Assembly (NCBI GenBank): GCA_024741835.1
Contig: JAENRP010000555.1
Coordinates: forward strand, 1-18,979
DNA from: Diplocarpon mali
Taxonomy: Eukaryota > Ascomycota > Leotiomycetes > Helotiales > Drepanopezizaceae
Length of the DNA: 18,979 nt
Direction: 5' to 3'
Below are positions 1 to 18,979 of this stretch, piece by piece. How positions within the stretch are numbered: the stretch's first letter is position 1; every line of letters starts with the position of its first letter. The translations under genes and the position numbers were made by a program. The notes beneath the pieces were generated by a model. It saw only the letters and a program-made list of their open reading frames with translations, was not told where the DNA came from and did no database searches.

Positions 1-3
1 TAA

Positions 4-3000
4 TTTATAAATAATAATTATAAAGTGATCTTTAAAGTTAAAATTAAAGATAGACTTTATATTATCTTAAAGGTAATATTATAGAAATTGACTCTTAGGC
101 CAGACCTATAAGTGGATTCCTTTAAGGAATGTGCACTTTCTACCTTAATACAATTAAGCGAGGATAAGGAGAATAAATAGACTCTTAAGCTAAGATCGTA
201 AGTGAAATTTGCGAAAATGACTCTTAAGCTAAGATTATAAATAGAATGCAACGTATCCTTAAAGATAACTCTTAAGCTAAGATTATAAATGAATTTAATA
301 GAAATGACTCTTAGGCTAAGACTACGAGTAGATTCTGCAGATTTGCTAATAATGACTTTTAAGCTAGGATTGCAAGTGAAATTCGTAGAAATAACTCTTA
401 GGCTAGGACTGCGAGTAAAATTCGCAAATTTATTAGAAATGACTCTTAAGCTAGGACTGCAAGTAGATCTTGCCATTTTTAGGAAATCGACTCTTAAGCT
501 AGGACCGTAAGTGGATCTTATAGTTTTACTAAAAACGACTCCCGAACTAGGCTTACAACTAGAAAACGGCAAAACCTCGAACTGCTATTACTAGTCCTTT
601 CTAGCCGCTAATAACAAAGTATCGATTAATAATAGGCTACTAAAGCTATTAGAAGCCGAAAGCCTATTAAGGTATTAATTAATATATAGAAGATTTATAT
701 ATTTAAGGCTAGAGAAATTAAAGGGCTTATATAAGGTCTTAACCTTAAAATAGAAGATTTAAATACTAAAGGATCGCCTAATATGCCGAATTTGCAAGCT
801 GATAAAACTTCGAAATCGGATGTAAACTAAGCTTAATCTATAAAAAGATTCAATACTAGCGCTAATATCTATTAATACTACTAGACTATTTACAACTTTA
901 ATTAAAGGAAATAATTAGTTTTCTTAAATAGTAGATAACTCTACTTAATAGATATAGACTATTTGCACTAAGACCAAATCTAAGCTTATAAAAAAGCTAG
1001 AAACTTAAAAAGTAATAAAGGAATGCTAGACCTAGTTAAAGCTAATAGCTATTAAGTCTAATAACGTATTAAAGATTAGGGCAAAGCTTAATAAATAGGC
1101 AAAATAAAGAGTTTACTATAAACTAATTATAATATATAAAGGTTCCTATTAAAATAGCATCGCTAAGCAAAGTATTTAATAAGTAAAGACTGACTATTGC
1201 GCTCTACTATAAGATGCTAACCTACTACTGGAATTCTAGGACCTTATAGTTAAAGTAAACGTATACTTATAAAATAGAATAGGTAGTAGACTAATAGTTA
1301 ATAGCACTTAAATATCGCTATATAAGGCATATTTCGGATAGAAATTAAGCTTAGACTATATCTGCGTCTTTAGAAGCGTTTGCTATTCTTATATTAGCCC
1401 GAAGTCCTAGCCTGCAAGTATAAAGAGTAAGAAGCTAATAGACTAAGGTAGAGAATATATATTTATTAAGTATATTAAATAGATAATAAAGCAATAGATA
1501 GTATATACGCTAGATCTAAGGCGAGTAATTATATCCTTAGTAGTTGAGTTCGATAAATCTCGAAATAAAGAAAAGCTATTCTTAAAGCTTTGCATACTTA
1601 GAGATTCGCAAAGTATACTAATCGATAGTAATACTATTAAGCCGAACTAATAACCCCTTTCTTTTAGCTTAGGTATATTAAGCGCACCCGCTAATCGACG
1701 ACCTGCTAATTGTCCAAAAGCCGAATAGACTATTCCTATTATCTGCAAACTGCTTAAAGTATAGAACAACTTTAATATTATTATCCCTTTAATTAAAGCA
1801 CCTATAGTAAAGGATATTCCTAAAATAGGTATAAGTAATAATAAGCCTCTACTATTAGAAAGCAGTTCCTTAGATAATAAGCCTATAGAACCTATAGCTA
1901 AACCTACGCCTTTAAAGAAGAATAGAGACCTAGAATTAGAAGATACCTTAGACGAATGCGAGTTTAAGCGTATCTAAGCTATAATAGCGCATAAGATCTA
2001 TAAGTTCGAACTTTAATAGAGCTTTAACAAAGATAATGCGTTTTTAGCCGCTAGGAGGATAATAAAAATCTCTCTTCTAAAGACGTATAATAAAGCTATT
2101 AATAATCTAAAGAATAAAGTAGTATAGAATAAGGCAATCTAAGAGAAGATAAGCTCTTTTACTATAAATAGTATATAGATAAAGGAACTAATACTAAAGG
2201 ACGTGAACTTAATATTAATAAAGTAGGTCTTTATAATTAAGATATATGCAGATAGAACCCTAAAGCGTTATAAGGTAAGGCTTATAGCTAAGGGCTTCTC
2301 CTAATAGTATAAAGAAGACTACTTTAATATATTTATACTAACAGTTCGTATAAATACCTTTTGCATATTCATAGCAATAGTAGCTGCTAAGGACCTTAAA
2401 TACAAATAGTATAATATTAAAAATGCATTTACTAAAGCGACTATAAAGGAACGGATTTTCCTCTCTTAACCTAATAGTATTCTTATATACGCTAGCCACT
2501 CTCTCTATATACTCTATAGTATCTATAGGCTTAAATAATCAGCCTATAATTAAAACCTCTTATATAACTCTACTTTAATAGAAATTGGATTCGTTTAAAG
2601 CCTAGCTAACCCTTATCTATTTACCTATGCTAAGTATAGAATTAAGTTGCTATTATATATTAACGATATTACTATAGCTATGAAAACAACTACTCAATTG
2701 GATTAGTTCTTTATAATAATTCGGAAACGTTTTAATACTAAGGATTTAAAAGGAATTTATAAGATCCTTAGCATCTGCATTATAAAGAACTATTCTACTT
2801 GAAAACTCTAGTTAGACTAAGAGCAGTATATTAAAAAGATCCTAGACCGAATAGGACTCTCTACTTATACTTCTAATTTTAAGCTAAAGCGTACTCCAAT
2901 CGAAGGAAAGTATAATAAGTTAGAGCCTACTAATGAAAATAAGCAAAGAGGAGATTTAAAGAAGTACTAATAGGATATTAAAGCAATTATATATACTATA

Positions 3001-3660
3001 ATATATATAAGACTAGATATCGCCTTTATTACTAGGCAACTTAATTAGAACTTAAAGGATCTAACGATTCGATATAAGAATGCAGTCAAGCGATTTAAAA
3101 GGTACCTTTAATTAATAATCATATAAAAGGTAAGATATAGACTAACGAAATATATAAGCGCAAAGCTTAAGATATATACCGATTCCGATTAGGCAAATAT
3201 AAAAGGTTAGAAAAGTATATCTAAAAGCGTAGCAGTATTATATAGCAGACCTATATTATAAGGAAGTAGGAAGTAGAAATCAATAGCTACTACAAGCATT
3301 AAGGCTAAATATATATCAATATTATTAAATTACAAGTAAAGATTATAAATTGCTTAAGTTTTAAAAGATATAGGTTTTGCTAAATATATTAAATAAAATA
3401 GGAACTATATTAATCTTTAAGCAGATAATATAAGGGCAATTGCACTTATAAAGAATCTATACTTATATAAGCGATCGAAATATATTAATATTACCTACTA
3501 CTTTATCTGCGACCTTATTATAAAGAATAAGTTATCAATTACCTATATCCTAATTGATCAAATAGTAGTAGATGGATTTATAAAGCTACTAAAGATAGTT
3601 GCAAAGTTCGAAGCGTTTAAAGATATACTAGGGTTATAGAAGATAGTAGGGGCTTAGCAG
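4..3660 (+). pseudogene. CopA-1 pol: protease tail, integrase, reverse transcriptase and RNase H remnant
   Basis: A single frame (codons starting at 4, 7, 10 and so on) can be followed for about 1,200 codons through many TAA/TAG stops without a net frameshift. It covers the protease C-terminus (4-90), a palindromic linker (91-560), the pre-integrase domain with a conserved Cys pair (about 679-800), integrase (about 820-1560), a variable linker, RT (about 2190-2890) and RNase H (about 2990-3620). The integrase D,D,E residues read N, N and K at 874, 1060 and 1165. The RT box normally YVDD reads YIND at 2656-2667. The RNase H D-W-A motif keeps D, but its Trp codon is TAG at 3187. These changes are G-to-A, as RIP makes. 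The gene is dead. The family call is firm; the exact C-terminus near 3640-3660 is uncertain. Confidence 0.93.
91..560 (+). repeat. Ten-copy array of the 23-bp palindromic module in the CopA-1 protease-integrase linker
   Basis: Copies start at 91, 181, 220, 268, 307, 355, 394, 442, 490 and 538. Successive distances are 90, 39, 48, 39, 48, 39, 48, 48, 48 and 48 less one final unit, all multiples of 3, so every copy is in the pol frame and reads roughly T-L-R/K-x-x-L-x-V. The last copy (538-560) is strongly decayed. Each unit is an imperfect palindrome beginning ACT and ending AGT. Spacers are AT-rich and vary in sequence. RIP has turned the CGA of better-kept copies into TAA, CAA or CGT-like triplets. 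The array lengthens a linker that is short in ordinary copia proteins. Confidence 0.9.
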
Positions 3661-3671
3661 ACTTAAGGACG

Positions 3672-3820
3672 ACTCCTAGGCCCGCCTTGCAAGTTAGGTC
3701 ATATAGTCTTATAAAGGAAAGTTTTTAAATCGACTCCTAGGCCTAGACCGCAAGTTAAGTTATATAGTCTTATAAAAGAACGCTTTTAGGAAATTTGACT
3801 CTTAGTCCTACCCTATGAGT
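3672..3820 (+). repeat. Three palindromic modules in the CopA-1 3' untranslated region
   Basis: Copies lie at 3672-3694, 3733-3755 and 3798-3820, just downstream of the RNase H domain. The spacings of 61 and 65 bp are not multiples of 3, unlike every copy inside pol, which fits non-coding placement. The same three copies occur at matching positions in the inverted CopA-2, so they were present before these two copies diverged. Between them and the LTR (3821-3959) I see only AT-rich untranslated sequence ending in a purine-rich stretch. Confidence 0.85.
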
Positions 3821-3950
3821 AGAGTTTAGTGATTTCAATAGAGGTTATTATTAATTAATTGTTTTTAATTTAAAAAGATACCTAAGAGTTAGATTAGCGC
3901 AAAAGGATAGTTATTATTTTCCCAATTATAAGTCAATTAGAGTAAGGTCT

Positions 3951-3959
3951 GAGTAAGGG
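3951..3959 (+). other. CopA-1 polypurine tract candidate
   Basis: The purine-rich stretch GAGTAAGGG lies immediately 5' of the LTR start at 3960, where the plus-strand primer of a copia element is expected. The equivalent stretch is present in inverted CopA-2 just beyond 14714. Confidence 0.6.
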
Positions 3960-4154
3960 TATTAAGATAGGTGATATAGCTATTACTCTAATATATTATC
4001 ATATGACCCTACTGCTTAATTAGTAGGATATTAATACATATATAGCTATAAGGAAGAAAGAGGTAACCTTCCTTCTTTAACTCTTACTAATATATCGACT
4101 ATCGACCTTTAGAAGCCTCCTTTACCTATTGCGCCGACTCACTTAAGCTCAATA
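3960..4154 (+). mobile_element. CopA-1 3' LTR, 195 bp
   Basis: The boundaries come from three aligned copies: this one, 14520-14714 (inverted) and 16920-17114. All are 195 bp. The LTR begins TATTAAGATAGG (the canonical TG probably lost to RIP) and ends CTCAATA (probably from CTCAACA). By eye it differs from the CopA-3 LTR at about 20 positions, almost all transitions. The next five bases, CAATC, would be the target duplication if the other end of the element were visible. Confidence 0.85.
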
Positions 4155-6959
4155 CAATCTGCTGTTACTGATATGCAGATCAAGGAAATAAAATCAGGGA
4201 AGACGCGAATCTGCGCTCCTTATAAGAAAGGCAGACCTCTCTAATACGTTAATAAACGTTCAGCTCACCCTCGACCTATAAAGGCACTTGACGAGCTATA
4301 TATCGATATGGTTCATCTAAAGCCAACTAGCCTTAACGGCTATAAATATGCCTTTATCTTCACTTGCTTAGCTATAATAGCTAAGTAGAGATAGACTTAT
4401 ATAAACAAATCTAATGCCTTCGAGGCAAATAAGAAGATGATCAGCCTCTTATAAACTTAATACAATTGTATAATCAAGCAGTAGAGAACTAATAAAGGCA
4501 AGGAGTACTCTCTTATATAAATGCAAATACTTATAGAAAACCTTAGCATAATTTTAGAAGAATCTACTCTATATACGCTAGAATAAGACGGCAGATTAGA
4601 ATAATCAATTCGTATACTAATGGAAAAGTTGCGAATAGCCGTAATTGACTAAAATATACCCTCCTTTCTCTAGCCTTACCTCCTTCTTTCGATAATATAT
4701 ATCATTAATCTTACCGCCTCTAATATTCTAAGTGGTAAGACTCTATATAAGGTCTTTTAGGATAATATCAAGCCTGATAAGCCTTATACTCCCTTAGTCA
4801 AGCATCTTCGAGTACTAGGCTATCGCATTTATATGCTTATTAAGAAAGAAAAGCGAACTTAAAGCAATAAACTCGCTTTAAGAGCAGAGGTAGGTACTCT
4901 TATTAGATTTGACAGCAGAAGTATCTATTAGATCTATATACTATTGCAACTAAGGGAGAAGATTATTCGATCTTCTTATATTCGATTCGATAAAGACGGC
5001 CTGATTATAGAGCCGCAATTGAGGGGTGATTTCACTCCTAGGCCAGGCCCGCGAGTCACTTCTTAAAACGATATTTTCACTCCTAGGCCGGGACCGCGAG
5101 TCAATTCTAACTCTTACGATTTTACTCCTAGGCCGGGACCGCGAGTTAATTCTGATTTAGGAGAAGCTAATAAAGCTGAGCTTCCAACTCTAAGAAAGAG
5201 AGGAAGACCTCCTAGTTTAAAGAATAAGGCTTACCCTTAGCCTTTTAAGAAGAGAGCTACTCGCTCTACTGCTCTTAGATTCAAAGCTAATAACTCTAAT
5301 AATAAAGAAGCCTATTTAGGCGCCTTCCATATAGCCTTACTCGACTCTTTATACCCAAATGACCTGAAAATAGTCGAATAAGCCCTCTCTTGCGCTAACG
5401 CTAATAAATAGAGATCTGCGATCAACTTTAAGTACAATTCCCTCACTTATAAGAATATATAAGTGGTAGTGAAATGCTTAAAACTCTTTAAAGACGATAG
5501 AGTACTTAGATCAAGGCTTGTCTTTAAAATAAAAAGAGACTAAAATAGGGAAATCTCCTAATAAAAGATCAGATTCGTTATATAAGGCTATATATAATAA
5601 TAAGGTCGAGATTATAACTAAACATTTGCAAGAGTATGCAAATCTGTAGTTTAGAAGATCGCAATTGCACTTATAGCGCTATACAACTTCAAGCTAAATT
5701 AGTTCGATATTAAGATAGCTTTCCTTAATTTAAAAACTGACTCTAACATCTATATCAAATTACCTCCTAGATATACTTAAGATAAGGTCGTTCTTTTACC
5801 TTAAGACTACTATCTTAAGCTTCTTAAGGCCTTATATAGCTTAAAGCAATCTCTACAACTATAATAAGAAAAGCTACGGTCTAAGCTGCAAAAGCTCGAT
5901 TTTCAACCTCTTAATACTAATAATTGCGTATATATCAACCGCGCCTCTCAGATTCTTATTATTACCTACATCGACGACTTCCTTATAGTAGCAAAGAAGG
6001 GTGATATATATAATAAGTTTAAAAGAGATCTTCGCAACCTCTTCGAAATTATAAGTGGCGAACTAGCTAACTACTTCTTAAGAGTACGTATAGTTAGAGA
6101 TCGATAAAATAGAACGATCTTACTTTATTAAAATGCCTATATTAATAAGGTTCTTAAATGTTTTTATATAACTAATTGTAAGAGCGTACTAACGCCTTTT
6201 ACTAGTAGCTATAAAGTTCATATAGTCAAATTTGAAGGCCAAGCCACTCTATAAGAAGTGAAGCTATACTAAGAGATCTATGGTTCTTTATAGTACCTTG
6301 CGCACTATATGTATTAGGATATACTATACTACTGCTCTATTCTTAGCAAATTCCTCACTAACCCTTTACTATAATATATAGTAGCTTTAAAACGAGTTTT
6401 ATAATACTTATAAGGAATGCGATTCTATTATACTACCTTTAGAAGTAAAACAATTGACTTAGAGCTTTAGAAATTGCATAGCTACTGCGATTCTAACTAG
6501 GCAGGTGATAAAGGAAGTAGAGCCTCCTATTCTAGGGCCGTCTTCTTCCTTAATAATGGCATAATTACCGCCTCCTTTAAGTGATAAACTATTATCGCTC
6601 TCTTATCTATAGAGGTAGAGTATATTGCTATATGCAAATTCGCATAAGAGGCCTCTTAGATACGCTAAGTACTTAAGGAAATGGGCTATAGTAATAACAA
6701 CGCTACTAAAGTCGAGATGATCTGCAATAACTAAGGAGCCCTTTATCTTACTGAAAACCCCGAATATTATTAAAGAACGAAGTAAATCGATATCAAGTTC
6801 TATTATATTCGGTAAGAGCTTTAGAAAGGCCATTTGGACCTCTAGTATATAAATACTAAAGATAACGCTGCTAATAGACTTATTAAGAGCTTAAATAGCT
6901 CCAACTATGCCGCCTTTATCAAATTGTTAAATATAAAGGTTCTGCACCTCGATTAAGGG
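4155..6959 (+). pseudogene. CopB pol: integrase, reverse transcriptase and RNase H remnant
   Basis: One frame (4155, 4158 and so on) runs about 930 codons with scattered TAA/TAG and no net frameshift. Near 4212 a C-A-P-Y-K-K-G-R-P segment is the pre-integrase Cys pair with its second Cys changed to Tyr. Integrase follows (about 4270-4680): the first catalytic Asp survives (Y-I-D-M-V), the D-N-G-x-E-Y region reads N-K-G-K-E-Y, and the G-x-x-E-Q helix keeps its Glu. The integrase-RT linker holds three palindromic modules (5034-5146) and an R-K-R-G-R-P segment (about 5194-5211) resembling an AT-hook. RT has an intact Y-I-D-D at 5967-5978. RNase H (about 6470-6860) has the D-W-A-G-D motif as N-stop-A-G-D, the stop replacing Trp. 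The terminal TAA at 6957 may itself be a mutated CAA. Confidence 0.92.
5034..5146 (+). repeat. Three palindromic modules in the CopB integrase-RT linker
   Basis: Copies lie at 5034-5056, 5079-5101 and 5124-5146, exactly 45 bp apart and in the pol frame, each reading T-P-R-P-G-P-R-V. They are among the best preserved copies in the window and are far more GC-rich than their surroundings. The first is preceded by GGGGTGATTT, the same leader found before the copy at 7031. Confidence 0.92.
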
Positions 6960-7030
6960 GTGATTTTTTTTTTTGCACCTCTATTATAAGGTGATTTTTT
7001 TTACACTTCTATTAAGGGGTGATTTTTTTT
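6945..7030 (+). repeat. Triplicated hairpin plus T-tract repeat in the CopB 3' untranslated region
   Basis: Three tandem units of 31, 28 and 27 bp start at 6945, 6976 and 7004. Each has a CACCTC-like arm, a short AT loop, a GGGGTG-like arm and GA, then a run of T (11, 8 and 8). In RNA each arm pair can form a stem of about 6 bp, with decay in units two and three. The last unit runs straight into the palindromic module at 7031. Confidence 0.75.
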
Positions 7031-7053
7031 ACTCCTGGGCCAGGCCTGCGAGT
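7031..7053 (+). repeat. Near-consensus palindromic module in the CopB 3' region
   Basis: This is one of the least mutated copies: ACTCCTGGGCC, a central A, then GGCCTGCGAGT. It lies downstream of pol, after the hairpin/T-tract repeats, so it is probably not translated. Of 11 arm pairs, 8 are Watson-Crick, two are G-T and one is mismatched. Confidence 0.88.
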
Positions 7054-7083
7054 TGATTTTAACTTACTAAAGGGTGGATTTCC

Positions 7084-7120
7084 TACTCTAGAGTAGAGCG
7101 CGCTAGCGAACTCTACTCTA
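7084..7120. repeat. Overlapping perfect palindromes in the CopB 3' region
   Basis: Positions 7084-7097 are a perfect 14-bp palindrome (CTACTCT then AGAGTAG). Its right half also starts a 10-bp perfect inverted repeat, 7089-7098 with 7111-7120, around a 12-base loop containing GCTAGC. This is unlike the 23-bp module. Function unknown. The flanking 7121-7215 is AT-rich with no feature I recognise. Confidence 0.7.
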
Positions 7121-7215
7121 TTTCCCATATCTGCAAGTTGATTTTTTATGCGAAACTATAAATTATAACAAAAGTTATAATATTATATATATTGCTAGCG
7201 AGTACCTTTAAAGGT

Positions 7216-7228
7216 CTCCCTAGAGGGG
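7216..7228 (+). other. CopB polypurine tract candidate
   Basis: A stretch ending in AGAGGGG lies directly before the inferred LTR start TGTATTATAAG at 7229. A purine block at this place is expected for plus-strand priming in copia elements. Confidence 0.6.
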
Positions 7229-7463
7229 TGTATTATAAGTATGCCTATTATATATTTATCATATGATCTATTATATGATATATCATATATATAATATATC
7301 ATATGACTTGCCATATGACTTAGTAGCAGCCCTTGTTAAATAGCTCGTAGTTAAAGAGCTCTTATGAATCAAGACACTCAATATCGTCGTTTGCACTTCA
7401 TACTTCTTCGTGCCCTCTTCTAGTTCACTATCAAGTTTACTATCAGAGAACCTTATTGCTACA
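7229..7463 (+). mobile_element. CopB 3' LTR, about 235 bp
   Basis: It starts TGTATTATAAGTATGCC after a purine tract and ends TTATTGCTACA, giving matching TGTA/TACA termini. The first third is rich in CATATG-centred palindromes (7257-7315). The last third is pyrimidine-rich, as in the U5 of fungal copia LTRs. No second copy is in the window, so the 3' boundary rests on the TACA terminus and on where gypsy gag homology begins. Confidence 0.7.
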
Positions 7464-7465
7464 CT

Positions 7466-8130
7466 ATAGGTTTAATATTATATAACGAGTTCTGATTTAA
7501 GTTCGTCACCTTTGCTATAGCTAATAAGATCGATCAATCTTATTAGTTTAATAATATCTATAAAAAGGTCTCTTTAGCCTTAAAGAACGACCTTTAAGTA
7601 GAGAAGTATAAAATAAATAATAATTATACTACTTTAGATAAGTTCTTAGCTATTGCGGATTATAAGGCTTATAATATTAAGTAAGAAGAAGCCTATAATA
7701 CTTAATAAGTCGCCTTTGCTATCGCATTCTCCCTTTTAAAGGACCGCGTCCTTAGCATACTAAAAAGGGAGTTATAAAGACCTATAGCCATAGCTACCTC
7801 CCTAGCTCTTTGTACTTATTCTCCCTCGCTAGCGGCTTACTAAGAAGGGTCTGCTAGCCCAAAGCTATTATCTAATCTCTACTATAACTGCAAAGCCTTT
7901 AATCACTATATAATAGACTGCCTTAAGCTAAAGAAGTAGGGCGAGTTTATAATAGCTAAAGTTAAGATAGAAAACAACCTGCTATTAAGAAACTGCTAAG
8001 CTATAGTAAAGACTCCTACTATAATATAGGTTATAATTTATAAAAAGACTTAGATTTTGATTCCTACTTATTAATAGGCGGCTGCCAGTTCTTAGTTCTT
8101 ATAGAACTAGCTTAAAATAGATCATTTATT
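7466..8130 (+). pseudogene. GypA gag remnant with zinc knuckle
   Basis: In the frame starting at 7466 the sequence reads as the C-terminal half of a gypsy gag. A charged, helical segment (about 7470-7760) includes a run recognisable as the retrotransposon gag core. After it comes a CCHC zinc knuckle at 7880-7921, in which the first Cys is now Tyr, while the second Cys, His and last Cys remain (C-x4-H-x4-C intact). Many TAA/TAG codons interrupt it. The N-terminus and start codon are missing because CopB's LTR replaces them. Gag lies one frame away from pol; the switch falls near 8100-8140. Confidence 0.82.
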
Positions 8131-8637
8131 AAAATAGTTACTTATATTAATAGTAAAGCTAATATTTTCAATATTATTAAAACGTCTTTAGCATACTAGC
8201 TCTCTTAAAGACTTGAGGTGAAGTTTATTAAACTACTTAAACCGATTACCCCTACTGGCTATAATAGCCTTAAGGGAGAAACCATTCGATTCGCTATCTT
8301 ACTTACCTTTATAATCGATAGGCGATAAATCAACTTCCCTTTCCTAATTATAAGCTTAAGAGCAACTGACGTTTTAATTAGCAAGAAGTTCCTAGAGCAC
8401 TATAACTTTAAATAGTCCTATAGAAAGGGAAAAAATAGTATCTTTTAGCCTAAGGATATGCCTATTATCCTTTACTTTAATTAACGTATACTAATCGATC
8501 TCTTATAGCTAATAAAACCTCTAATAGCCTAATAAGATATCGATTGTCAAGCAGCTATAATAGACGCTAAAGATAAAGACCTTAGAATGGCCTAAGTCTA
8601 GCTCTCGATGCTAGCAAGCAATAACGCCTCGAATTCT

Positions 8638-8750
8638 ACTCCTAGGCCTAGCCTGCGAGTGAAAACTGCAAACTCGAATTCTACTCCTAGGCCTAGTTTG
8701 CAAATGAAAACTTCGAACTCGAATTCCATTCTTAAGCCTAGCTTGCAAGT
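8638..8750 (+). repeat. Three palindromic modules in the GypA protease-RT linker
   Basis: Copies lie at 8638-8660, 8683-8705 and 8728-8750, each 45 bp apart and in the pol frame, reading T-P-R-P-S-L-R-V in the best copy. Spacers are 22 bp and resemble each other (GAAAACT...CTCGAATTC). The surrounding 95-codon stretch is open because this part is less mutated. The same three copies occur in GypB at 14201-14313. Confidence 0.92.
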
Positions 8751-10614
8751 GGCCTTTTATAAATCTAAGGATAGCAGTTTCTTTAAAGACTTGAAAAGAG
8801 ATCTGAATTATATAAAGAAGGCCTTGCTAAGAGTATTAAACCCTTTACTCCCTCTTTTAGTAAAAAGAAACGCTCCTTTAAAGATAGCTTATTAGATTAG
8901 CCTAATCTTAGCCTTAGCAATCGGCGCCCTTTACTACCGCTTTATAATTAGGGTAAGATAAGCTATATAAACTTAAGAACTAGCGCTTAAAGAGTTTACA
9001 TTTATAAGCTCTATTTATAATTTAGACTAAGAGATTAATCGCCGAGAATCGGCTAGGCAAGCTGAAATTAGCTCCCTTGGCCTTAGTTCGGCGCTGCAAG
9101 CTAAGTATAAGAGTAATAATAAGCTAATAGACTAGAAGCTCCCGCCTTAGTACGCTAAGTTCAAGAATGTCTTTAGTCGCTAAGCCTTTAATTAGCTACC
9201 GAAACTTAGGCTAAGGGTAGATTATAAAATTGAGCTAATAGGCGAAAACAACTTAATAATCGAACCCTTCTGCCGCCTTACTAATAAATAGCTCTTAAAG
9301 GTTAAGAGTTATATTCTTAAGAACTTATATAAAGGATTTATTAAAGCTTTAAGTTCCCTTTAAGTAGCCCTAATCCTCTTTATTAGAAAAGCTAATAGCT
9401 CCTTATATTTATATATTAATTATCGGAAACTGAACGCCTTAATAAAGAAAGACCCTTACTTAATTCCCTTTATTAATAAGATAATAGCATATATATCGAA
9501 AGCTTATATTTTTATAAAGATTAATATATAATAAGCCTTCTACTATATTTATATATTAGCTGATGCTAAGGACCTAACTACCTTTCGCATGCGCTATAAG
9601 ACTTATAAGTATAAGGTTTTACCATTTGAGCTAATAAATAGGCCTGCTACCTTTTAGAGGTTTATTAACGATATTCTCTTTAAGCACCTTAATGATTTCT
9701 ACTCTACCTACTTAGATAATATTCTAATCTACTTAAAAAACTCCTTTAATTATAAGATTTATATTAAGAAGATCTTAAGAATTCTTTAATACTATGGCCT
9801 TTAAGCAAATATTAAGAAAAGCGAGTTTAGGGTTATTAAAACTAAGTTCTTAGGGTTTATTATTAGAGTTTATAAAATTAAGGTAGACTTTAATAAGGTC
9901 TTAGTTATTTAGGAGTAGAAATACGCTAAGAATATATATAGTATATAAAGCTTCTTAAGGTTCTATAACTTCTATCGAAGGTTTATTTAAGGCTATAGTT
10001 ATATCTGCCGACCTTTAATAGCTCTTATAGGGAACGTTCCTTTTGATTTTAATAATACTTATAAAGAAGCTTAGGAAACTTTGCGCTTAAGCCTTTAAAT
10101 AACTCTGATTTTATACTACTACTACCTTTAGAAGTAGATAAGGCTTAAGACCGACGCCTTTAATAATATAGTCGCTAGCGTACTCTCTTAACTTTAAGAA
10201 GACGATGATTACTACCTAATTGGGTATTTCTTAAAGACTATAAATAATGCTAAGCTAAATTACCTTATTTATAATAAGGAGCTCTTAGCGATTTTTAAAT
10301 CGTTCTACTACTATAAGGCAGAGCTACTTAAGGCTTAGAAAATAATATGCGTATATATAGATCATAAGGCCTTTAAGTACTTTATAATAACTAAGGACTT
10401 AATAGCCTAGCAAGCTCGCTAGGCGGAGTTCTTCGCTAATTTCAACTTCCTTATTATATACCAAATAGGTATAATAAATACGCTAGCTAATACACTCTCC
10501 TATTAAGACTAGGAGCTGACCCCTCTTAAGGCTAGGAAACGAGCTTTACGCTACTAGCAGCTCTTGCCTAATGATAAGTTCTTTATAGAAGTACTTACCA
10601 TTAGAAACGATTCT

Positions 10615-10682
10615 ACTCGCAGGCCCGCTCTATAAGTAACTTTAGCGCAGATCAATTCTACTCCTAGGCCCGGCCTATAAGT
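10615..10682 (+). repeat. Two palindromic modules in the GypA RNase H-integrase linker
   Basis: Copies lie at 10615-10637 and 10660-10682, again 45 bp apart and in the pol frame (T-R-R-P-A-L-stop-V and T-P-R-P-G-L-stop-V). The stop in each replaces the CGA of better-preserved copies. This is a second independent linker of the same element carrying the module. GypB does not extend this far, so its age relative to GypB cannot be judged. Confidence 0.9.
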
Positions 10683-12039
10683 GACAATTATACCAATCGC
10701 GCTAATAGAGGCACCTGCCGACCCAACGTCTAAAGTCAAGTATAATATAGCGAGCTACTATATTATCAATAAGGTCATTTAAGCTAATAAGACCTCCCTT
10801 AAGCTATAGAAGTTCTAAGACAAGGCGTAGAGCTATAGCCTCGACTATAAACTCAGCTAAGGCAAACTCTTTTTCTAAGGTAGACTTATTATACTATTAT
10901 AACCTCTTAAACTATAAATAGCCCTAATTCGTTATATATATAAGCAACCTTGCGTCGCATATGCTAGAATCGGGAAAACAAGGCTTCTAATAGGAAGAAA
11001 ATACTACTAGAAAAGCCTTAGTAGCAATATCGGCACTTATATTTAAAACTATTATTATTTAAAAATGAAAGCTTATTATAATAAAACCCCAGGTTTCTTA
11101 TAACCCTTGCCAATTCCTAAATGAGCTTACTAATACTTAATAATAGATTTTATAAAGCTTCTGCTTAACAAACTTAGTTATAATTTTGCCCTTATAATTA
11201 TCGATAGGTTATTAAAGAAGGCAGTTTCAGTTCTATACTATAATTTAGTTGATGCAAAAGGCCTTATAGAATTGTTTTTAGTTTATTAGATATGCTATTT
11301 TAGCATATCTGACTCGATTCTATTAGATAAAGGCGCTTAATTCGTCTCTTCCTTTTAAAAAGAGCTCTATTAAATACTAAGTTCAAAGGTTAAGCTAACT
11401 ATAGCCTATAACCCTAATGTTAATAGCTAAACTAAGATCATAAACTAATACTTAAAATAACGCCTTAGGCCATTCTACTTATACTACTAAGACAATTGGA
11501 GTCGTCTCTTGCCTTTAATAGATATTACCCAATTGACCTTACCTTATAAATCCCTAGGGCAAATTTCCCCTTTTTAAGTGCTAAACGACTATAAAGCTCG
11601 CTCCTCTTAGAATTTAATTAACCTAGAGCCTTTATAGATAGCAACTGAGAGATTAAATTGTAAAATAGCGCTTTATATAGCTATTAGAGCTTAAAAAGTA
11701 GTCCAATTCGCTTAATTATCTCTTTAAGTATAATAAGTTAAAATAAAATAGCTTGCAGATCTCTACTGCTAGCCAATTGATTAGACTATAGGAGATAATA
11801 TGCTAATTAGTATTAAAAATTAGAAACTGGACCGGCCGAGCCGAAAGCTCTCCAATAAGTGGTATAGCCTAGTAAAAGTACTAGAAAAGCTAAGAGAAAG
11901 CTAAAAGCTATAATTGCATAATTCGCTTTATTCAATCTACCTTATATTCTACTCCCACTTACTATAAAAATATATTCCCAACCCTTTGCTAAGCTAAGCT
12001 TAAGAACCTCCTGCCCTAATTAAAGTATTATTAGAATAA

Positions 12040-12165
12040 GAGGAGTAGGAGATAGAAGAAATAATTGGATCTTATATTTAAGCTAAGAAGTTCGAATATT
12101 AGATTAAGTGGAAAGGAGCTAACGAAGACCTCGAGTAGTACTTATGCTTTAATGCTATAATAGTA
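12040..12165 (+). other. Chromodomain at the C-terminus of GypA integrase
   Basis: In the pol frame an E-I-E-E-I-I segment is followed, after about 15 residues, by I-K-W-K-G (Trp at 12109) and an acidic E-D-L-E stretch. This matches the chromodomain strand-strand-helix pattern. Chromodomains of this type bind methylated histone H3 in chromoviruses and can direct integration to heterochromatin; here that is inference from the family. RIP stops interrupt it. Confidence 0.85.
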
Positions 12166-12324
12166 CCGTATACTATTCGAGATTTCCATCTAAAGAACCC
12201 TTAAGCTAAGAGGCTATTAAGGGCGCTATTAAGCTAGCTTAGATCATATAATAATAGAGTTGACGATTATAGGGACCTAGAGGATAATACGCCTATAGAT
12301 ACAATTGCGTAGGCGCAGTTTTTC

Positions 12325-12336
12325 AAAGGGGGGGGG
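12325..12336 (+). other. GypA polypurine tract
   Basis: Three A followed by nine G lie directly before the LTR start. This is the standard plus-strand primer site of Ty3/gypsy elements, and it doubles as the last pol codons before the TAG at 12337-12339. Confidence 0.85.
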
Positions 12337-12339
12337 TAG

Positions 12340-12582
12340 TATTACGGCCGCATTATATATACGGTTATATCATATATTGAAGTCAGGTGCACGCTAAGGT
12401 AGCGAGGTGGCTGGATCACGTACACGCTAGTGAAGCACCTGTACTTATTCTGGAGGAGCTCTACCAGAGACTCTCTCTCTTCTTCATCTTTTCTTCTCTA
12501 TTATATAGCGTACCTCTTGAGGTAATACAGTCAGCGTCATTCGATTCTCGCCCCATTGTACGCTCCAGAGCAAGTCGTACCA
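12340..12582 (+). mobile_element. GypA 3' LTR, about 243 bp, largely spared by RIP
   Basis: It starts TATTACGGCCGC (from TGTTACGG, as in fungal gypsy LTRs) after the polypurine tract. It ends GTCGTACCA where homology to inverted GypB begins. By hand count, 12361-12480 contains 14 CA or TG dinucleotides, against 4 in a CopA stretch of equal length (1501-1620). A pyrimidine-rich CT run at 12469-12497 precedes a TATATAG sequence. A 78-codon open frame overlapping it (12387-12623) is a chance ORF in this less mutated DNA. No second copy of the LTR is in the window. Confidence 0.8.
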
Positions 12583-14519
12583 CTTATGATCTATATATAC
12601 GTATACAGTTTTCTAGGCCTTGAGTAGCTTTGCCTTGTACTGGTAGAACGATCTAAAAATCGCTAGGAGCTCCTTATTGTAAATAGGGTAATTCAGCTCG
12701 GCGTTATTTATAGTCTTCGAGAAGTACCCGATTAGGTAGTAGTTATTATCTTCCTAGAGTTAGGAGAGTATGCCGGCAACTATGCTATTAGAGGCGTTGG
12801 TCTTAAGCCTTATCTGCTTCTAAGGGTAATAGTAGTATAAAATCAGGGTTATTTAAAGGCTTAAGCGTAGAGTTTCCTAAGCTTCTTTATAAGTGTTATT
12901 AAAATCAAAAGGAATATTCCTTATAAGAGCTATTAAAGGTCGGTAAATACGATTATAGCTTTAAATAAACCTTTAGTAGAAGTTATAGAACCTTAAGAAG
13001 CTTTATATACTGCGTACATTCTTAGCGTATTTCTACTTTTAAATAATTAAGACCTTATTAAGGTCTACCTTAATTTTATAAACTCTAATAATAAACCCTA
13101 GGAACTTAGTCTTAGTAACCCTAAACTCGCTTTTCTTAATATCTACTTAAAGGCCGTAGCGTTAGAGAATTCCTAAGATCTTTTTAATATAAATCTTATA
13201 GTTAAGGGAGTTTTTTAAGTAGATTAGAATATTATTTAGGTAGGTAGAGCAAAAATCGTTAAGGTGCTTAAGGAGAATATTATTAATAAACCTTTAAAAG
13301 GTAGTAGGCCTATTTATTAGCTTAAATAGTAAAACCTTATATTTATAGGTTTTATAATATATGCAAAAGGTAGTTAGGTCCTTAGCGTTAGCTAATATAT
13401 AGATATAGTAGAAGACTTATTATATATCGATTTTTATAAAAACATAAGCTTTCGATATGCGTACTATTATCTTATTAATAAGTAGAATCGGGTAGGGGTC
13501 TTTCTTTATTAGGGCGTTTAGTTTCTAATAATCGATATATAGATATAAGGAGCTATTAGCTTTTCTAATAAAGAGGATTAGGGCTGCCTAAGGGGAACTC
13601 GAAGCTTTAATAAATCCTTTATATAGGTTTTTAAGAATATAGCTCTTAACCTTTAAGAGCTATTTATTAATAAGGCGGCAGAGGGGTTCGATTATCAAAT
13701 TGTTCTTACCTATTAGTTCGATTTTATAATTTACCCTTAGCCTAGTTTCTAGCAGTTGATTAAAGGCCTAGCGACTAAAGACGTTCTTAAACTTAGTATA
13801 TTAAAGCAGGAGCTTTTAGTCTATTAGCTTATTATTGCTCTTATACTTAGCTTATAGCGCCGAACTAAGGCTAAGGGAGCTAATTTCAGCTTGCTTAGCT
13901 GATTTTCGGCGATTAATCTCTTAGTTTAAATTATAAATAGAGCTTACGAATATAAACTCTTTAAGCGCTAGTTCTTAAATTTATATAGCTTATCTTACCT
14001 TAGTTATAAAGCAGTAGTAGAAAGCGCTAATTGCTAAGGCTAAGATTAGACTAATCTAGTAAGCTATCTTTAAAAGAGCGTTCCTCTTTATTAAAAGAGG
14101 GAATAAGAGGTCTAATACTCTTAGCAAGGCCTTCTTTATATAATTTAGATCTCTTTTTAAGTCTTTAAAGAAACTGCTATCCTTAAGTTTATAAAAGGCC
14201 ACTTATAAGCTAGGCCTAGGAGTGGAATTCGAGTTCGCAGTTTTCACTTATAAGCTAGGCCTAAGAGTAGAGTTCGAATTTGCAGTTTTCACTTATAGGC
14301 TAGGGCTAAGAGTGGAGTTTAAGGCGTTATTACTTGCTAGCACTAAGAGCTAGGCTTAGGCCATTCTTAGGTCTTCGTCCTTAGCGTCTATTATAGCTGC
14401 TTAACGATCGACGTCTTACTAGGCTATTAAGGGTTTTATTAGCTGCAAGAGATCGATTAGTACGCGTCGATTAAAGTAGGAGACAATAGGCATATCCTTA
14501 GGCTAGGATATACTATTTT
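12583..14519 (-). mobile_element. GypB: inverted fragment of the GypA family
   Basis: On the minus strand this matches GypA 8432-10368 over exactly 1937 bases; coordinates pair as x + y = 22951 throughout. It covers the protease end, the linker, RT and the first part of RNase H. It is cut at 12583 by the GypA LTR and at 14519 by the CopA-2 LTR. It is therefore the interior of an older gypsy copy that received both insertions. The last bases next to the GypA LTR (12583-12720) retain more CA/TG than the rest. Confidence 0.93.
12583..14519 (-). pseudogene. GypB pol remnant: protease end, RT and partial RNase H
   Basis: Read on the minus strand from 14519 to 12583, it contains the protease C-terminus (14519 to about 14330), the palindromic linker (14313-14201), RT (about 13720-13050) and RNase H up to its D-H-K motif at the 12583 junction. 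The RT active site reads Y-L-N-N at 13231-13242, so both catalytic Asp codons are changed, compared with one in GypA. There are many in-frame TAA/TAG codons and no net frameshift relative to GypA. It is non-functional. Confidence 0.9.
14201..14313 (-). repeat. Three palindromic modules in the GypB linker
   Basis: Copies lie at 14201-14223, 14246-14268 and 14291-14313, 45 bp apart. They are the exact positional counterparts of GypA 8728-8750, 8683-8705 and 8638-8660. Their presence in both copies shows the module entered the family before GypA and GypB separated. Confidence 0.9.
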
Positions 14520-14714
14520 TATTAAGCTTAAGTGAGTCGGCGCAGTAAGTAATAGAAACTTCTAAAGGTCGATAGTCGATATATTAGTAAGAGTTAGGGA
14601 AGGAAGGTTACCCCTTTCTTCCCTATAGCTATATATATATTAATATCCTATTGATTAAGCAGTAGGGTTATATGATAATACATTAAAGTAATAGCTATAT
14701 TACCTATCTTAATA
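14520..14714 (-). mobile_element. CopA-2 3' LTR, 195 bp, inverted
   Basis: This is the reverse complement of the CopA LTR and has the same 195-bp length as the other two copies. Its outer end is at 14520, next to GypB bases ATTTT, which would be the target duplication. Purines equivalent to the CopA-1 polypurine tract lie just beyond 14714. Confidence 0.85.
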
Positions 14715-14853
14715 CCCTTACTTAAACCTTACTCTAATTAACCTGCAGTCGGGAAAATAATAACTATCCTTTTACGCTAATCCAACTCTTAAGTATCTCT
14801 TTAAATTAAAAATAATTAATAAATAGCAACTTCTATTAAAATTACCAAACTCT

Positions 14854-15002
14854 ACTTATAAGGCAGGACTAAGAGTCAATTTTCCTAAAAGCGTTCCTTT
14901 ATAAGACTACGTAACTTAACTCGCGGTCTAGGCCTAAGAGTCGATTTAAAAACTTTCTTTTATAAGACTATATGACCTAACTTATAAAGCAGGCCTAGGA
15001 GT
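14854..15002 (-). repeat. Three palindromic modules in the CopA-2 3' untranslated region
   Basis: Copies lie at 14854-14876, 14919-14941 and 14980-15002, at the mirror positions of the three in CopA-1 (3672-3820). The region 14715-14853 between them and the LTR is AT-rich untranslated sequence matching 3821-3959. Confidence 0.85.
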
Positions 15003-15009
15003 CGTCCTT

Positions 15010-16919
15010 AAGCTTATTAAGCCCTTACTATCTTTTGCAACCTTAGTATATCTTTAAATGCTTTAAACTTTGCAACTATCTTTAATAGCTTTATAAATCC
15101 ATCTACTACTATTCGATTAGTTAGGATATAGATAATTGATAACTTATTCTTTATAATAAGGTTGTAAATAAAGTAGTAGGCAATATCAATATATTTCGAT
15201 CGCTTATATAAGTATAGATTCTTTATAAGTGCAATCGCCCTTATATTATCTACTTAAAGATTAATACAGTTCTTATCCTATTTAATATACTTAGCGAAAC
15301 TTATATCTTTTAGAACTTAAGCGATTTATAATCCTTGCTTATAATTTAATAATATCGATATATATTCGGCCTTAATGCTTGCAATAGCTACTGATTTCTA
15401 CTTCCTACTTCCTTATAATATAGGTCTGCTATATAGTACTGCTACACTTCTAGATTTACTTTTCTAACCTTTTATATTTGCCTAATTGGAATTAGTATAT
15501 ACTTTAAGCTTTGCGCTTATATATTTTATTAATCTATATCTTACCTTTTATATGATTATCAATTAAAGGTACCTTTTAAGTCGCTTAACTACATTCTTAT
15601 ATTAAATCGTTAGATCCTTTAGGTTCTAACTAAGTTGCTTAATAATAAAGGCGATATCTAGTCTTATATATACTATAGTATATATAATCGCTCCGATATC
15701 CTATTAGTACTTCTTTAGATCTCCTTTCTACTTATTTTTATTAGTAGGCTCTAACTTATTATACTTTCCTTCGATTAGAGTATACTTTAGCTTAAAGTTG
15801 GGAGCATAAGTAAAGAGTCCTATTCGGTCTAGGATCTTCTTAATATACTACTCTTAGTTTAATCAGAGTTCTTAAGTAGAGCGGTTCCTTATAACGCAGA
15901 TGCCGAGAATCTTATAAATTCCCTTTAGATCCTTAGTATTAAAACGTTTCTAAATAGTTATAAAGAACCAATCTAATTAAGTGGTTGTTTTTATAGCTAT
16001 AGTAATATTATCGATATATAGTAGCAACTTAATTCTACGCTTAGTATAGGTAAATAGATAAGGGTTAGCTAAGCTTTAAACGAATCCCATTTCTATTAAA
16101 GTAGAGCTATATAAGAGGTTCTAATTATAGGCTGATTATTTAAGCTTATAAATACTGCAGAGTATATAAAGAGAGTGGCTAGCGCATATAAGAATACCGT
16201 TAGGTTAAGAGAGAAAAATCCGTTCCTTTATAGTCGCTTTAGTAAATGCATTTTTAATATCGTACTATCTGCATTTAAGGTTCTTAGCGGCTACTATTGC
16301 TATAAATATATAAAGGGTATTTATGCAAACTATCAGCGCGAATATATCGAAGTAGTCTTCTCTATACTATTAGGAAAAGCCCTTAGTTATAAGCCTTGCC
16401 TTATAACGTTTTAAGGTCCTATCTGTATATATCTTAATTATAAAGACCTACTTCGTTAATACTAAGTTCATATCCTTTAGCATTAGTTCCTCTATCTATA
16501 TACCATTTGCAATAAGAGAGCTTATCTCCTCTTAGATTGCCTTATTCTATACTACTCTATTCTTTAGATTATTAATAGCTTTATTGTACGTCTTTAGAAG
16601 AGAGATTTTCATTATCCCCTTAGCGGTTAAGAACGCATTATCTTCGTCGAAGCTCTATTGAAGTTCGAGCTTATAGATCCTATGCGCTATTATAGCCTAG
16701 ATACGCTTAGACTCGCGTTTATCTAAGGTATCTTCCGGTTCTAAGTCTTTATTCCTCTTTAAAGGCATAGGTTCGGCTGTAGGTTCTATAGGCTTATTAT
16801 CTAAGGAACCGCTTTCTAATGGTAGAGGCTTATTATTACTTATACCTGTTTTAGGAATATCCTTTACTATAGGTACTTTAATTAAAGGGATGATAATATT
16901 AAAGTTGTTCCGTACTTTA
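15010..16919 (-). pseudogene. CopA-2 pol remnant: linker, reverse transcriptase and RNase H
   Basis: Read on the minus strand, it carries the CopA integrase-RT linker (16919 to about 16490), RT (about 16480-15780) and RNase H (about 15690-15050). The RT box reads Y-I-D-N at 16007-16018, while CopA-1 reads Y-I-N-D. The two copies thus lost different catalytic Asp residues, showing independent mutation after duplication. Stops are frequent; register with CopA-1 is perfect. The integrase half is missing because CopA-3 inserted at 16919. A 79-codon plus-strand open frame at 16175-16414 is an antisense shadow. Confidence 0.9.
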
Positions 16920-17114
16920 TATTAAGATAGGTGATACAGCTATCACTCTGATGTATTATCATATGACCCTACTGCTTAGTCAGTAGGATATTAATACGTA
17001 TATAGCTATAGGGAAGAAAAGGGTAACCTTCCTTCCTTAACTCTTACTAATATATCGACTATCGACCTTTAGAAGTTTCTATTACCTACTACACCAACTC
17101 ACTTAAGCTCAATA
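16920..17114 (+). mobile_element. CopA-3 5' LTR, 195 bp
   Basis: It starts TATTAAGATAGG exactly where CopA-2 homology stops and ends CTCAATA. It retains more CA/TG than the CopA-1 LTR (for example GATACAGC against GATATAGC), so it is the less mutated copy and the best guide to the family LTR. It contains a CATATG-centred palindrome shared with the CopB LTR. Confidence 0.88.
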
Positions 17115-17132
17115 GGTTATAAGCTTTAGCTA
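17115..17132 (+). other. CopA primer-binding site candidate
   Basis: GGTTATAAGCTTTAGC follows the LTR directly, where the tRNA primer site of a copia element is expected. RIP may have altered it, and I cannot name the tRNA. Confidence 0.45.
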
Positions 17133-17233
17133 AACCGATAATAGATTATTAACTTCCTTTAGAAAGCACTTGCGCTATAACTATTAGTAGGAAGTTGAAT
17201 AAGACTTATAGTAAGAGGCGAGCAATCGGCGAA

Positions 17234-17400
17234 TAAGAGGTATGATTCCCTATTTAGCTAACCTATATTGCAAGAGGTATAATTCCTTGCTCTATAACCC
17301 TTTGGTATTATAAGAGGTATAATTCCTTGCTTTACTATATTTCGTAAGAGGTGTGATTCCCTGCCTTATAGCCTAAAAACCCTTTTCGATAAGAGGACTT
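17234..17400 (+). repeat. Leader repeats in CopA-3, about four copies of an 18-20-bp unit
   Basis: The unit resembles AAGAGGTRTRATTCCYTGC and starts near 17235, 17272, 17312 and 17346, spaced 34-40 bp, with a degenerate fifth copy near 17391. The array lies between the primer-binding site and gag, the region where retroelement RNAs hold packaging signals and translation leaders. The rest of 17133-17513 shows no gene. Confidence 0.7.
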
Positions 17401-17513
17401 CCTCCTTATTTAATACTTTTATAATACCTACTATTTAATCATTTTGACTTTTCGATAGAAGGAGTGCCTTTAACTATTTAATTTATTTGATTTTAAACGC
17501 AATTCTATTTAAA

Positions 17514-18690
17514 ATAGCAATAGCTTCCGATTCTGATCGAAACACTAGACTTAAAGACCTCTAACTCTTTCGAAAGAACTAGCAATAATAATTCGATGAT
17601 TTAAAGCTTTACTTTAAGAGTAAAGGCATCGAAATAGCGATTTAAAAGACACTTATTAAATATGCGAGAATAGCCCCTTATACTCCCTCTATTAATTCGT
17701 TTACTTCCACTTTAATAGCTAATATAACTACTAAGGATTTGCCAGATATATTAAATAAGCTTAGCCTAAGAGCTTTAGTAGATAATAACCGAGAATCCTA
17801 AAGGCAGATTTTAAATATAAAAAAGGAGAAAGAGTATAAGCTAGCCTTAGCTAAATGCAAGCTTAAGATTAATAGAGGTTTAAGCGATAAAGACTAAGAT
17901 TTTATTTAAGTTTATAATAATGCAAAGATAAGATAGGATACTTTAAAGGTAAAATACTCTTAGACAATTGCCCTTAATACCTAACATCTATTATAGCAAA
18001 TCACTTTATTTTAATATAAAAAAGACAGAGATAGCAAGGATATAGATATAAATATAGACTTTACTTAGTCTATACTATATAAAGTAAGAAGGAGAGTAAG
18101 AGCTGCAGATCCTAAGATAGCTATAACTTTTAAGGAAACTCAACTTTTTAATCTCTTACTTAATAGCCTCCTTCTTAAGTTCGCTATTATAAAATAATCT
18201 CTTCTTATCTAACCTAACCTTAAGATCTATAAGAAGATTGACCTCTTTTAAACTATTAAGCAAGACTTTAAAGGACGCTTTAAATCGGCAAATGCCGCAT
18301 TATAAGGTAATAATAAGCCCGAGAAGAGGAAGGAGCGCAGGACAAGTCCTTAAGCTTATCAGGGATGCTACTTCTATAATAATACTTATAATATTACTAA
18401 TTATAAAGTTAAAAGGCAATTGATTAATATAGTCGCTAGCTTTAATATTAAGAAGCAATTGAAGCAGAAGTTAAGAAGCAAACTACCTTTATTCTACTAA
18501 AGGCCGCAACTACTAAGGAAAGGCAAAGGAAAAGGCTATTTAATCAAAACTTCAGCAGATACCTTTAATAATAATAGTAAGTTATTTAAATTTAAATCCA
18601 CTTTCGATAATTTAAATAATAATTATAATAAAGATACTTACGTTTTTAAAGCCGATCTTTATAAAATCCTTAAATCCGACTAATATAGTA
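17514..18690 (+). pseudogene. CopA-3 gag remnant
   Basis: A frame from 17514 runs through gag into protease without a shift, so CopA has a single gag-pol ORF. The probable start is ATA at 17514 or 17520 (each followed by GCA or GCT), an ATG changed by RIP. The first part is hydrophilic and helical. Residues about 285-297 (18366-18404) look like a decayed zinc knuckle of the form C-x2-C-x3-H-x4-C, in which the first Cys remains and the other three ligands are Tyr codons (TAT, from TGT or CAT). Lys/Arg-rich segments flank it. About 20 TAA/TAG codons interrupt it. The identification rests mainly on position and the adjoining protease. Confidence 0.8.
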
Positions 18691-18979
18691 ATACTAATTG
18701 TATAGCATATATAATTGATAAACCCTACCTATTTAAAGGCCCGCTTATTAAAATAAAAAGGCGCTCTATTAAGGTTAGTAATAGAAGGTTATATACAGAC
18801 TCGATAGGTATAGTAGAGATGAATATTATTAGCATTTCTTTCCTTTTGCAAAATGTTCTCTTTATACTTAGCTTAAGTATTAATCTTTTATCTAGCTATA
18901 AGATCTATATAGAGTTAAATTATATAAGAGTTTTTAATAATCAATTTATATAGTTTATAAATAATAATTATAAAGTGAT
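18691..18979 (+). pseudogene. CopA-3 protease remnant, running off the window
   Basis: In the gag frame an I-I-D segment (Asp at 18717) is followed by L-F, a basic stretch, a G-I-G-x-V-like turn and a hydrophobic L-Q-N-V-L-F...N-L-L-S block. This is the usual C-terminal half of copia proteases. The D-S/T-G box is damaged after the Asp. The frame continues in register into the sequence at window position 4 if the shared 29 bases are superimposed. It is decayed and incomplete. Confidence 0.82.
18951..18979 (+). repeat. Direct terminal repeat shared with 1-29
   Basis: The last 29 bases match the first 29 with one difference (G at 18953, A at 3). Both are in the same codon register of CopA gag-pol, just after protease. 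Confidence 0.95.

Follow-up and report, generated by a model that had tools for sequence, protein, structure and literature searches.

Spreading palindromes that code for protein are known from bacteria, and Wolbachia, to go by a reference title, reportedly has protein-coding palindromic repeats. Bacterial repetitive extragenic palindromic (REP) sequences are tied to RAYT transposases, and fungal mitochondria contain palindromic repeats known as GC clusters. As the relevant passages of PMC2229807 and PMC6649704 describe them, Rickettsia palindromic elements are 105–146 bp long, lie in frame within the proteins of many unrelated bacterial genes and also in RNA genes, and show a fading identity between repeats. 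The corresponding part of PMC12306157 presents REP as short palindromes found in many copies in bacterial intergenic regions. For fungal mitochondria, portions of two articles report palindromic microsatellites of Fusarium, which are called mobile (PMC7218506), and bypassed palindromes of Magnusiomyces, which lie inside coding sequence and are untranslated (PMC6649704). Cleavage of the Ty1 retrotransposon polyprotein occurs at the Gag/protease (PR), PR/integrase (IN), and IN/reverse transcriptase (RT) joints, and the joint peptides given in the consulted part of that source are unlike one another (PMC6952103). Here, we analyzed a contig of the fungus Diplocarpon mali (GCA_024741835.1, JAENRP010000555.1, positions 1–18,979; this whole stretch of 18,979 nucleotides is called the window below), in which a first-pass annotation had listed 28 copies of a 23-bp imperfect palindrome in three families of long terminal repeat (LTR) retrotransposons, designated CopA, CopB, and the gypsy family. 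With a probability of roughly 0.55, we consider this module to be a small coding palindrome that unrelated families of LTR retrotransposons in one fungus have acquired by copying from one another; it would have been kept at joints, tandemly multiplied, and decayed by repeat-induced point mutation (RIP).

The 23-mer was in register at all 28 listed starts, although three copies (181, 220, and 268) were recognizable solely as decayed members of an array. With strict arms, 8 of the 28 copies had at most 3 mismatches (expectation 0, from 200 shuffles), and with a degenerate consensus, 25 had at most 7. The central spacer was exactly one base in each of 37 exact-arm copies when spacers of 0–24 were permitted. 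The least decayed palindrome, ACTCCCGGGCC-N-GGCCCGCGAGT, encodes the peptide T-P-G-P-G-P-R-V and is followed by an AT-rich linker, with which it forms a repeat unit of 39–54 bp. Comparison with little-decayed copies identified ACTCCTAGGCC...TGCGAGT, read as TPRPGLRV, as a RIP-decayed form of the palindrome; the T-P-R-P-x-L-R-V consensus first proposed for the module therefore stands for a former T-P-G-P-G-P-R-V, which is the sharper form. The little-decayed copies were reached via domain searches, with 150 of 1,082 and 150 of 660 candidates scored. Their palindromes read ACTCCCGGGCCGGGCCCGCGAGT at site S1 (locus L145), ACTCCCGG[T/G]CCGGGACCGCGAGT at S2 (L131), ACTCCCGGTCCCGGCCCGCGAGT, twice, at S3 (L149), and the reverse at S8 (L146), and those at S5 (L151) and S6 (L150) were more varied.

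CopB carries three palindromes in the pol frame at the IN/RT joint (S2; 5034–5146, plus strand; starts 5034, 5079, and 5124, in 45-bp steps), with an SH3-like IN domain just upstream in L042 (PF25597, E = 4e−4) and RVT_2 downstream (E = 4e−7), both just below the curated cut-off. A single palindrome (S1; 7031–7053, plus strand) lies downstream of the CopB pol end, after a tandem repeat with a T-run. That repeat, of about 28 bp (GCACCTCTATTAAGGGGTGATTTTTTTT), occupies 6943–7030 immediately before S1 and ends in letters similar to those preceding S2. In the gypsy family, three palindromes lie in the pol frame at the PR/RT joint (S3; 8638–8750, plus strand; starts 8638, 8683, and 8728, in 45-bp steps; domain names by eye) and two, also in the pol frame, at the RNase H/IN joint (S4; 10615–10682, plus strand; starts 10615 and 10660, a 45-bp step); a second, inverted gypsy copy has S3 at 14201–14313 (minus strand; starts 14201, 14246, and 14291). 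CopA carries ten palindromes at the PR/IN joint (S6; 91–560, plus strand; starts 91, 181, 220, 268, 307, 355, 394, 442, 490, and 538, in steps of 39, 48, and 90) and three behind its pol end (S5; 3672–3820, plus strand; starts 3672, 3733, and 3798, in steps of 61 and 65), and a second, inverted CopA copy has S5 at 14854–15002 (minus strand; starts 14854, 14919, and 14980, of which 14919 clusters with 3733). The stretch before S6, which recurs at 18684–18950, had a weak Pol_BBD match (E = 0.007, below the curated cut-off). Elsewhere in the genome, S8 is a reversed palindrome in CopB before a protease-like DTGASEHI (nucleocapsid/PR joint; L146), and S7, in a further family, lies upstream of a gag-like open reading frame with no Pfam match. 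The genome's RT_RNaseH matches lay just upstream of S4 copies, RVT_2 matches adjoined S2 copies, and RVT_1 in L003 was above the curated cut-off (E = 2e−14); domain names given without Pfam support were assigned by eye. Pfam returned no match for CopA 3421–3636, the gag-like piece of L003, and window positions 8602–8892; of three L016 pieces, two had no match and one had an implausible match. As judged by eye, no copy falls in a catalytic domain, which bears out the first description.

All data come from one genome, of 49.4 Mb in 676 contigs. It contains 60 matches to PF04082, a domain specific to fungi, whereas 14 control genomes contain none, in keeping with a fungal host. Matches with at most two mismatches numbered 525 + 550 (up to 1,075, with near-symmetric copies possibly counted on both strands), compared with 0 for the reversed control and a chance expectation of about 2e−6 copies genome-wide for 22 fixed bases. 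Within the AT-rich window, inter-family pairs of 23-mers matching at 19 or more positions also occurred outside palindrome–palindrome pairs (1/18, 25/49, and 25/39), so that the window by itself is no proof of homology; homology is proven by the exact copies genome-wide. Of the 37 exact copies, the 30 that were read fell into six flank contexts (S1, 11; S7, 8; S8, 5; S2, 3; S3, 2; S10, 1), and a scan of loci L001–L108 and the window yielded 203 palindromes in 92 loci, with 42 automatic flank clusters and 19 labels after merging by eye. S1 and S2 have some 14 upstream bases in common (TTAAGGGGTGATTT), so one of them is probably derived from the other within CopB; the other contexts look unrelated. 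Unrelated Copia and Gypsy families thus share a coding palindrome at unrelated places, as had been claimed, and its passage between families is the simplest reading. At S10 (L119–L125 and L104), there are mostly two palindromes, whose starts are 107–124 bp apart, in contrast to the 45-bp arrays; several of them follow a long T-run.

The distribution over the genome was uneven. In a sample of 20 regions of 10 kb (segments with more than 300 N skipped; L017 was nearly all N), 9 palindromes occurred in 36 one-kb segments with a GC content below 0.42, and none in the 154 one-kb gene-space segments above 0.42; by hand, the sampled regions extrapolate to roughly 2,300 copies. Local GC was 0.27–0.45 for all 48 copies sampled by similarity. 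A looser scan of 20 random regions, allowing 6 plain mismatches, was discarded: it gave 16 matches compared with 7 in shuffles, and the two in gene-like regions (L020 and L023) proved unlike the module when read letter by letter. The absence from sampled gene space, together with the lack of any visible target duplication and the sharing of fixed, not scattered, sites by family members, speaks against a free-standing miniature element that has its own or a borrowed transposase and survives in transposons by chance. Such an element would account for the many unrelated contexts, the two orientations, and the copies in unassigned AT-rich sequence (five palindromes in L016), but we regard it as very improbable. 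At L016:5884–6080, two reversed palindromes lie in one frame with stops between them (TRRPSLQV and TREPGLQI) and no evident pol features. A Helitron 3′ hairpin was dropped as a candidate, as no constant end appears to follow the palindrome.

A high TpA/ApT ratio with a low (CpA+TpG)/(ApC+GpT) ratio is read as a RIP-like signature. These ratios were 1.5 and 0.56 in the window and 0.68 and 1.27 in the gene-space sample, and the carriers accordingly seem to show RIP-like decay. Perfectly symmetric forms, searched for in the decayed spelling only, had no exact occurrence and 18 and 49 places at one mismatch, most of the 49 being the asymmetric form with one RIP-type change.

In the pol copies checked, the module is read in one phase. 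The copies at 5034, 5079, and 5124 (CopB) and at 8638, 8683, 8728, 10615, and 10660 (gypsy) have ACT as a codon of the pol frame (single-frame translation), and the ten copies at 91–538 share one phase. The common phase claimed initially therefore held for the pol copies checked, at S2, S3, and S4, but has no meaning for 3672–3798 and 7031, because these copies appear to lie after the pol stops. The stop-free CopA pol piece ends at 3636, and the TAG at 3655, which is also present in the little-decayed L151 with the same three palindromes, is inferred to be the true CopA pol stop. In the little-decayed L150, eight S6 palindromes occupy one forward ACT frame; two stops interrupt this frame, and one of the two is located at a further, decayed module. 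The S6 and S8 frames run on into the neighboring domains with single stops inside; that of S8 passes one stop before reaching DTGASEHI, which agrees with the protease motif D-S/T-G-A as given in the part of PMC6952103 consulted. Over the loci collected, the ACT frame was the longest stop-free frame at the palindrome in 132 of 153 entries (the other frames in 15 and 6), a count to be read with the caveat that decay of a module is enough to close one frame and that some exceptions are antisense. The stops do not force the phase of the L145 form, because it is open in all six frames. Five sites would agree by chance among three open frames with a probability of about 0.01 (by hand, independence assumed), and the true weight of this figure is smaller because S3 and S4 share one element.

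The length of 23 bases makes the third codon positions of the two strands face each other, and both orientations read T-x-G-P-G-P-x-V because the wobble positions of both strands are opposed in the phase used. At coding sites, 107 of 117 transversions (159 copies) were at wobble positions, and at noncoding sites, 4 of 8 (33 copies). When 25 little-decayed palindromes were compared with the L145 form, 18 of 22 transversions were at wobble positions, and the remaining four were in noncoding S5 (two), S4 (one), and S6 (one). These observations also suit a functional linker or protease-processing cassette, in which T-P-G-P-G-P-R-V is selected at joints and shared by recombination between elements, with the palindrome as a by-product: the module joints match known Ty1 cleavage joints, a single phase is used despite six open frames, coding-site transversions fall mostly at wobble positions, and both orientations give the same core peptide. 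We nevertheless consider this explanation unlikely, since S1, S5, and S7, behind pol or in the leader, cannot serve a polyprotein, since identical Gly and Pro codons at every site exceed the needs of peptide selection, and since other Copia and Gypsy families do without the module at the matching joint. It is also conceivable, if doubtful, that an orientation-independent coding palindrome is traded between families as an interchangeable polyprotein joint, giving the same Gly-Pro linker either way.

The RNA hairpin was modest: the least decayed form folded at −12.7 kcal/mol (z = −1.47), and the other five forms folded were weaker. A protein-binding or RNA signal (a site for a dimeric factor with a one-base spacer, or a packaging hairpin) acquired by several families, with the phase incidental, would fit the constant spacer (37/37) with its free central base, the better pairing of the noncoding S1 and S7 (9.8 and 10.0 of 11; picked by similarity), the compensated T9–A15 pair in L131, and the unpaired mismatch at 5/19, kept in 24 of the 25 palindromes of little-decayed copies. 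However, the central base doubles as a wobble position, most S2, S3, and S6 copies have broken pairing, the hairpins are weak compared with shuffles, and an incidental phase should not agree at five joints; such a signal thus seems decidedly improbable. Positions 9 and 15 occurred in all four combinations in 203 copies (GC 92, GA 64, TC 37, and TA 8). In the first S2 module, transversions per site were 0.043 compared with 0.012 in the flanks (3.6 times), and its haplotypes differ by transversions and in the linker, while the flanks remain one family. Both patterns point to exchange between modules, with repeated mutation as an alternative.

Copy number varied within families and presence varied between them. 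The first and second modules were present in every copy of the alignments, which comprised 21 copies of CopB and 21 of gypsy, and length changes in the stretch shown were multiples of three. Of the 20 fetched gypsy copies, 7 (L057, L060, L061, and L064–L067) have lost the same 15 nt, in frame, from within the third S3 palindrome, which leaves ACTCCTA-T. With module-free queries for S4 (40 of 176 candidates scored), there were 13 spanning matches, all of which exceeded the query length by 23, as well as split matches in 45-bp steps, three of which were worked out by hand as 68, 113, and 158; S4 copy number thus ranged from one to four in unit steps, and two of the 13 spanning matches and the array of four in L128 were read. 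All 12 S7 copies retrieved through their flanks were occupied, as were 8 more found via the palindrome. Other families lack the module at matching joints. Gypsy D aligned at 34% identity over about 920 amino acids; its best site scored 13 in two decayed members and 16 in L142, which by eye is a little-decayed one. The palindromes that were counted score at most 6, a value that strongly decayed carriers can exceed. The IN/RT stretch contained the module in 2 of 8 fetched Copia loci, both CopB, and the RNase H/IN stretch in 1 of 8 fetched Gypsy loci, five of the seven without it being one family by eye; these 16 stretches were taken as joint regions, the exact joint not being aligned one by one. 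CopA itself lacks the module at IN/RT (L133, family by eye). An ancestral linker inherited by all carrying elements, the finding that by the first-pass annotation would overturn its interpretation and which would have explained why the copies read within a family carry the module, is therefore hardly tenable: the module is absent from other Copia and Gypsy families at matching joints (Gypsy D and six further Gypsy loci at RNase H/IN, and CopA at IN/RT), and the CopA and CopB joints differ.

The reading that we prefer, a coding palindrome copied between families, takes up the shared sequence, the sites, the phase, both orientations, the unit-step copy number, and the lack of the module in other families. 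The most likely route of transfer would be a template switch, in which reverse transcriptase changes at the GC hairpin from one co-packaged RNA to another, or alternatively ectopic gene conversion. The module may have been retained where an extra Pro/Gly linker was tolerated or useful, at polyprotein joints and also in untranslated ends, possibly with selection on the linker; unequal exchange or slippage would then have multiplied it in unit steps, and RIP would later have decayed it. Several observations weigh against this reading. Occupied and empty sites could be compared between families, but no empty site was found within any carrying family among the S4, S7, and S10 copies found by flank, so that an insertion was never seen and a target duplication is unreadable, and the full occupancy of S2 and S3 is biased because the queries contained the modules. 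Because S3 and S4 belong to a single element and S1 is similar to S2, the number of moves required is smaller than the number of sites. Pairing at 9/15 was broken in 102 of 203 copies. Transversions inside palindromes were at the level of the flanks (S2 copies 2 and 3, and S3) or absent (S7), transitions were higher inside than in the flanks at S3 and S7, and, the first S2 module apart, there was no sign of extra conservation of the palindrome within a family. Two substitutions, essentially 9 G>T and 15 C>A, account for all 107 wobble changes, and the copies are related, so that few events underlie the signal of selection; in the 25 little-decayed palindromes, transitions were not wobble-biased (18 of 44), and 6 of the 8 S6 modules of L150 are no longer TPGPGPR.

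Other features of the window concern its carriers. The same letters (ATAAATAATAATTATAAAGTGAT) stand at both contig ends (1–30 and 18950–18979, by eye), so the contig probably breaks inside two CopA copies. Similar LTR-like stretches at 3930–4170, 14540–14770, and 16925–17120 (by eye), one of them inverted, mark nested or truncated copies. An AT-hook-like RGRPP, of which 8 of the 9 CopB pieces free of stops retain GRP, follows the CopB S2 array at 5200–5240, and the gypsy integrase has, by eye, a chromodomain-like end at 12090–12180 (KFEY*IKWKG).

Exact pattern scans with the decayed and sharper forms in viral and prokaryotic contig collections gave no match, and two protein searches gave none at E = 1 in databases of uncertain fungal content, so that both are uninformative on other fungi. 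Rfam reported nothing in the window. The literature search found no paper on this module, and papers matching the letters of the motif were unrelated by title. Among the described systems, REP are intergenic in bacteria and RAYT-linked, whereas no transposase is known to go with the module. It resembles the palindromes of fungal mitochondria in being short and fungal, but unlike a mitochondrial GC cluster or double hairpin, it is carried by LTR retrotransposons that show RIP-like decay and are spread over many contigs, and unlike the untranslated bypassed palindromes of Magnusiomyces, it is read in frame. The coding copies in Copia elements lie at joints equivalent to the Gag/PR, PR/IN, and IN/RT cleavage joints of Ty1, where cleavage is putative, and their peptide is unlike the Ty1 joint peptides quoted in the consulted part of PMC6952103; the module suggests a natural, portable polyprotein linker. 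With the Rickettsia palindromic elements, to which it was first compared, it shares a palindromic repeat that is in frame in coding sequence in many contexts and whose copies grow less alike with time. The comparison fails for length, the module being 23 bp and its unit 39–54 bp compared with 105–146 bp, and for host genes, the bacterial elements occupying protein and RNA genes whereas the module occupies nuclear LTR retrotransposons and none of the sampled gene space (0/154); because neither length nor, in the sample, presence in host genes agrees, we do not class it with them. As a nuclear counterpart inside retrotransposons, it would show that modules smaller than an element pass between unrelated families, and it would offer a direct test of reverse transcription as a means of spreading a word of 23 bp.

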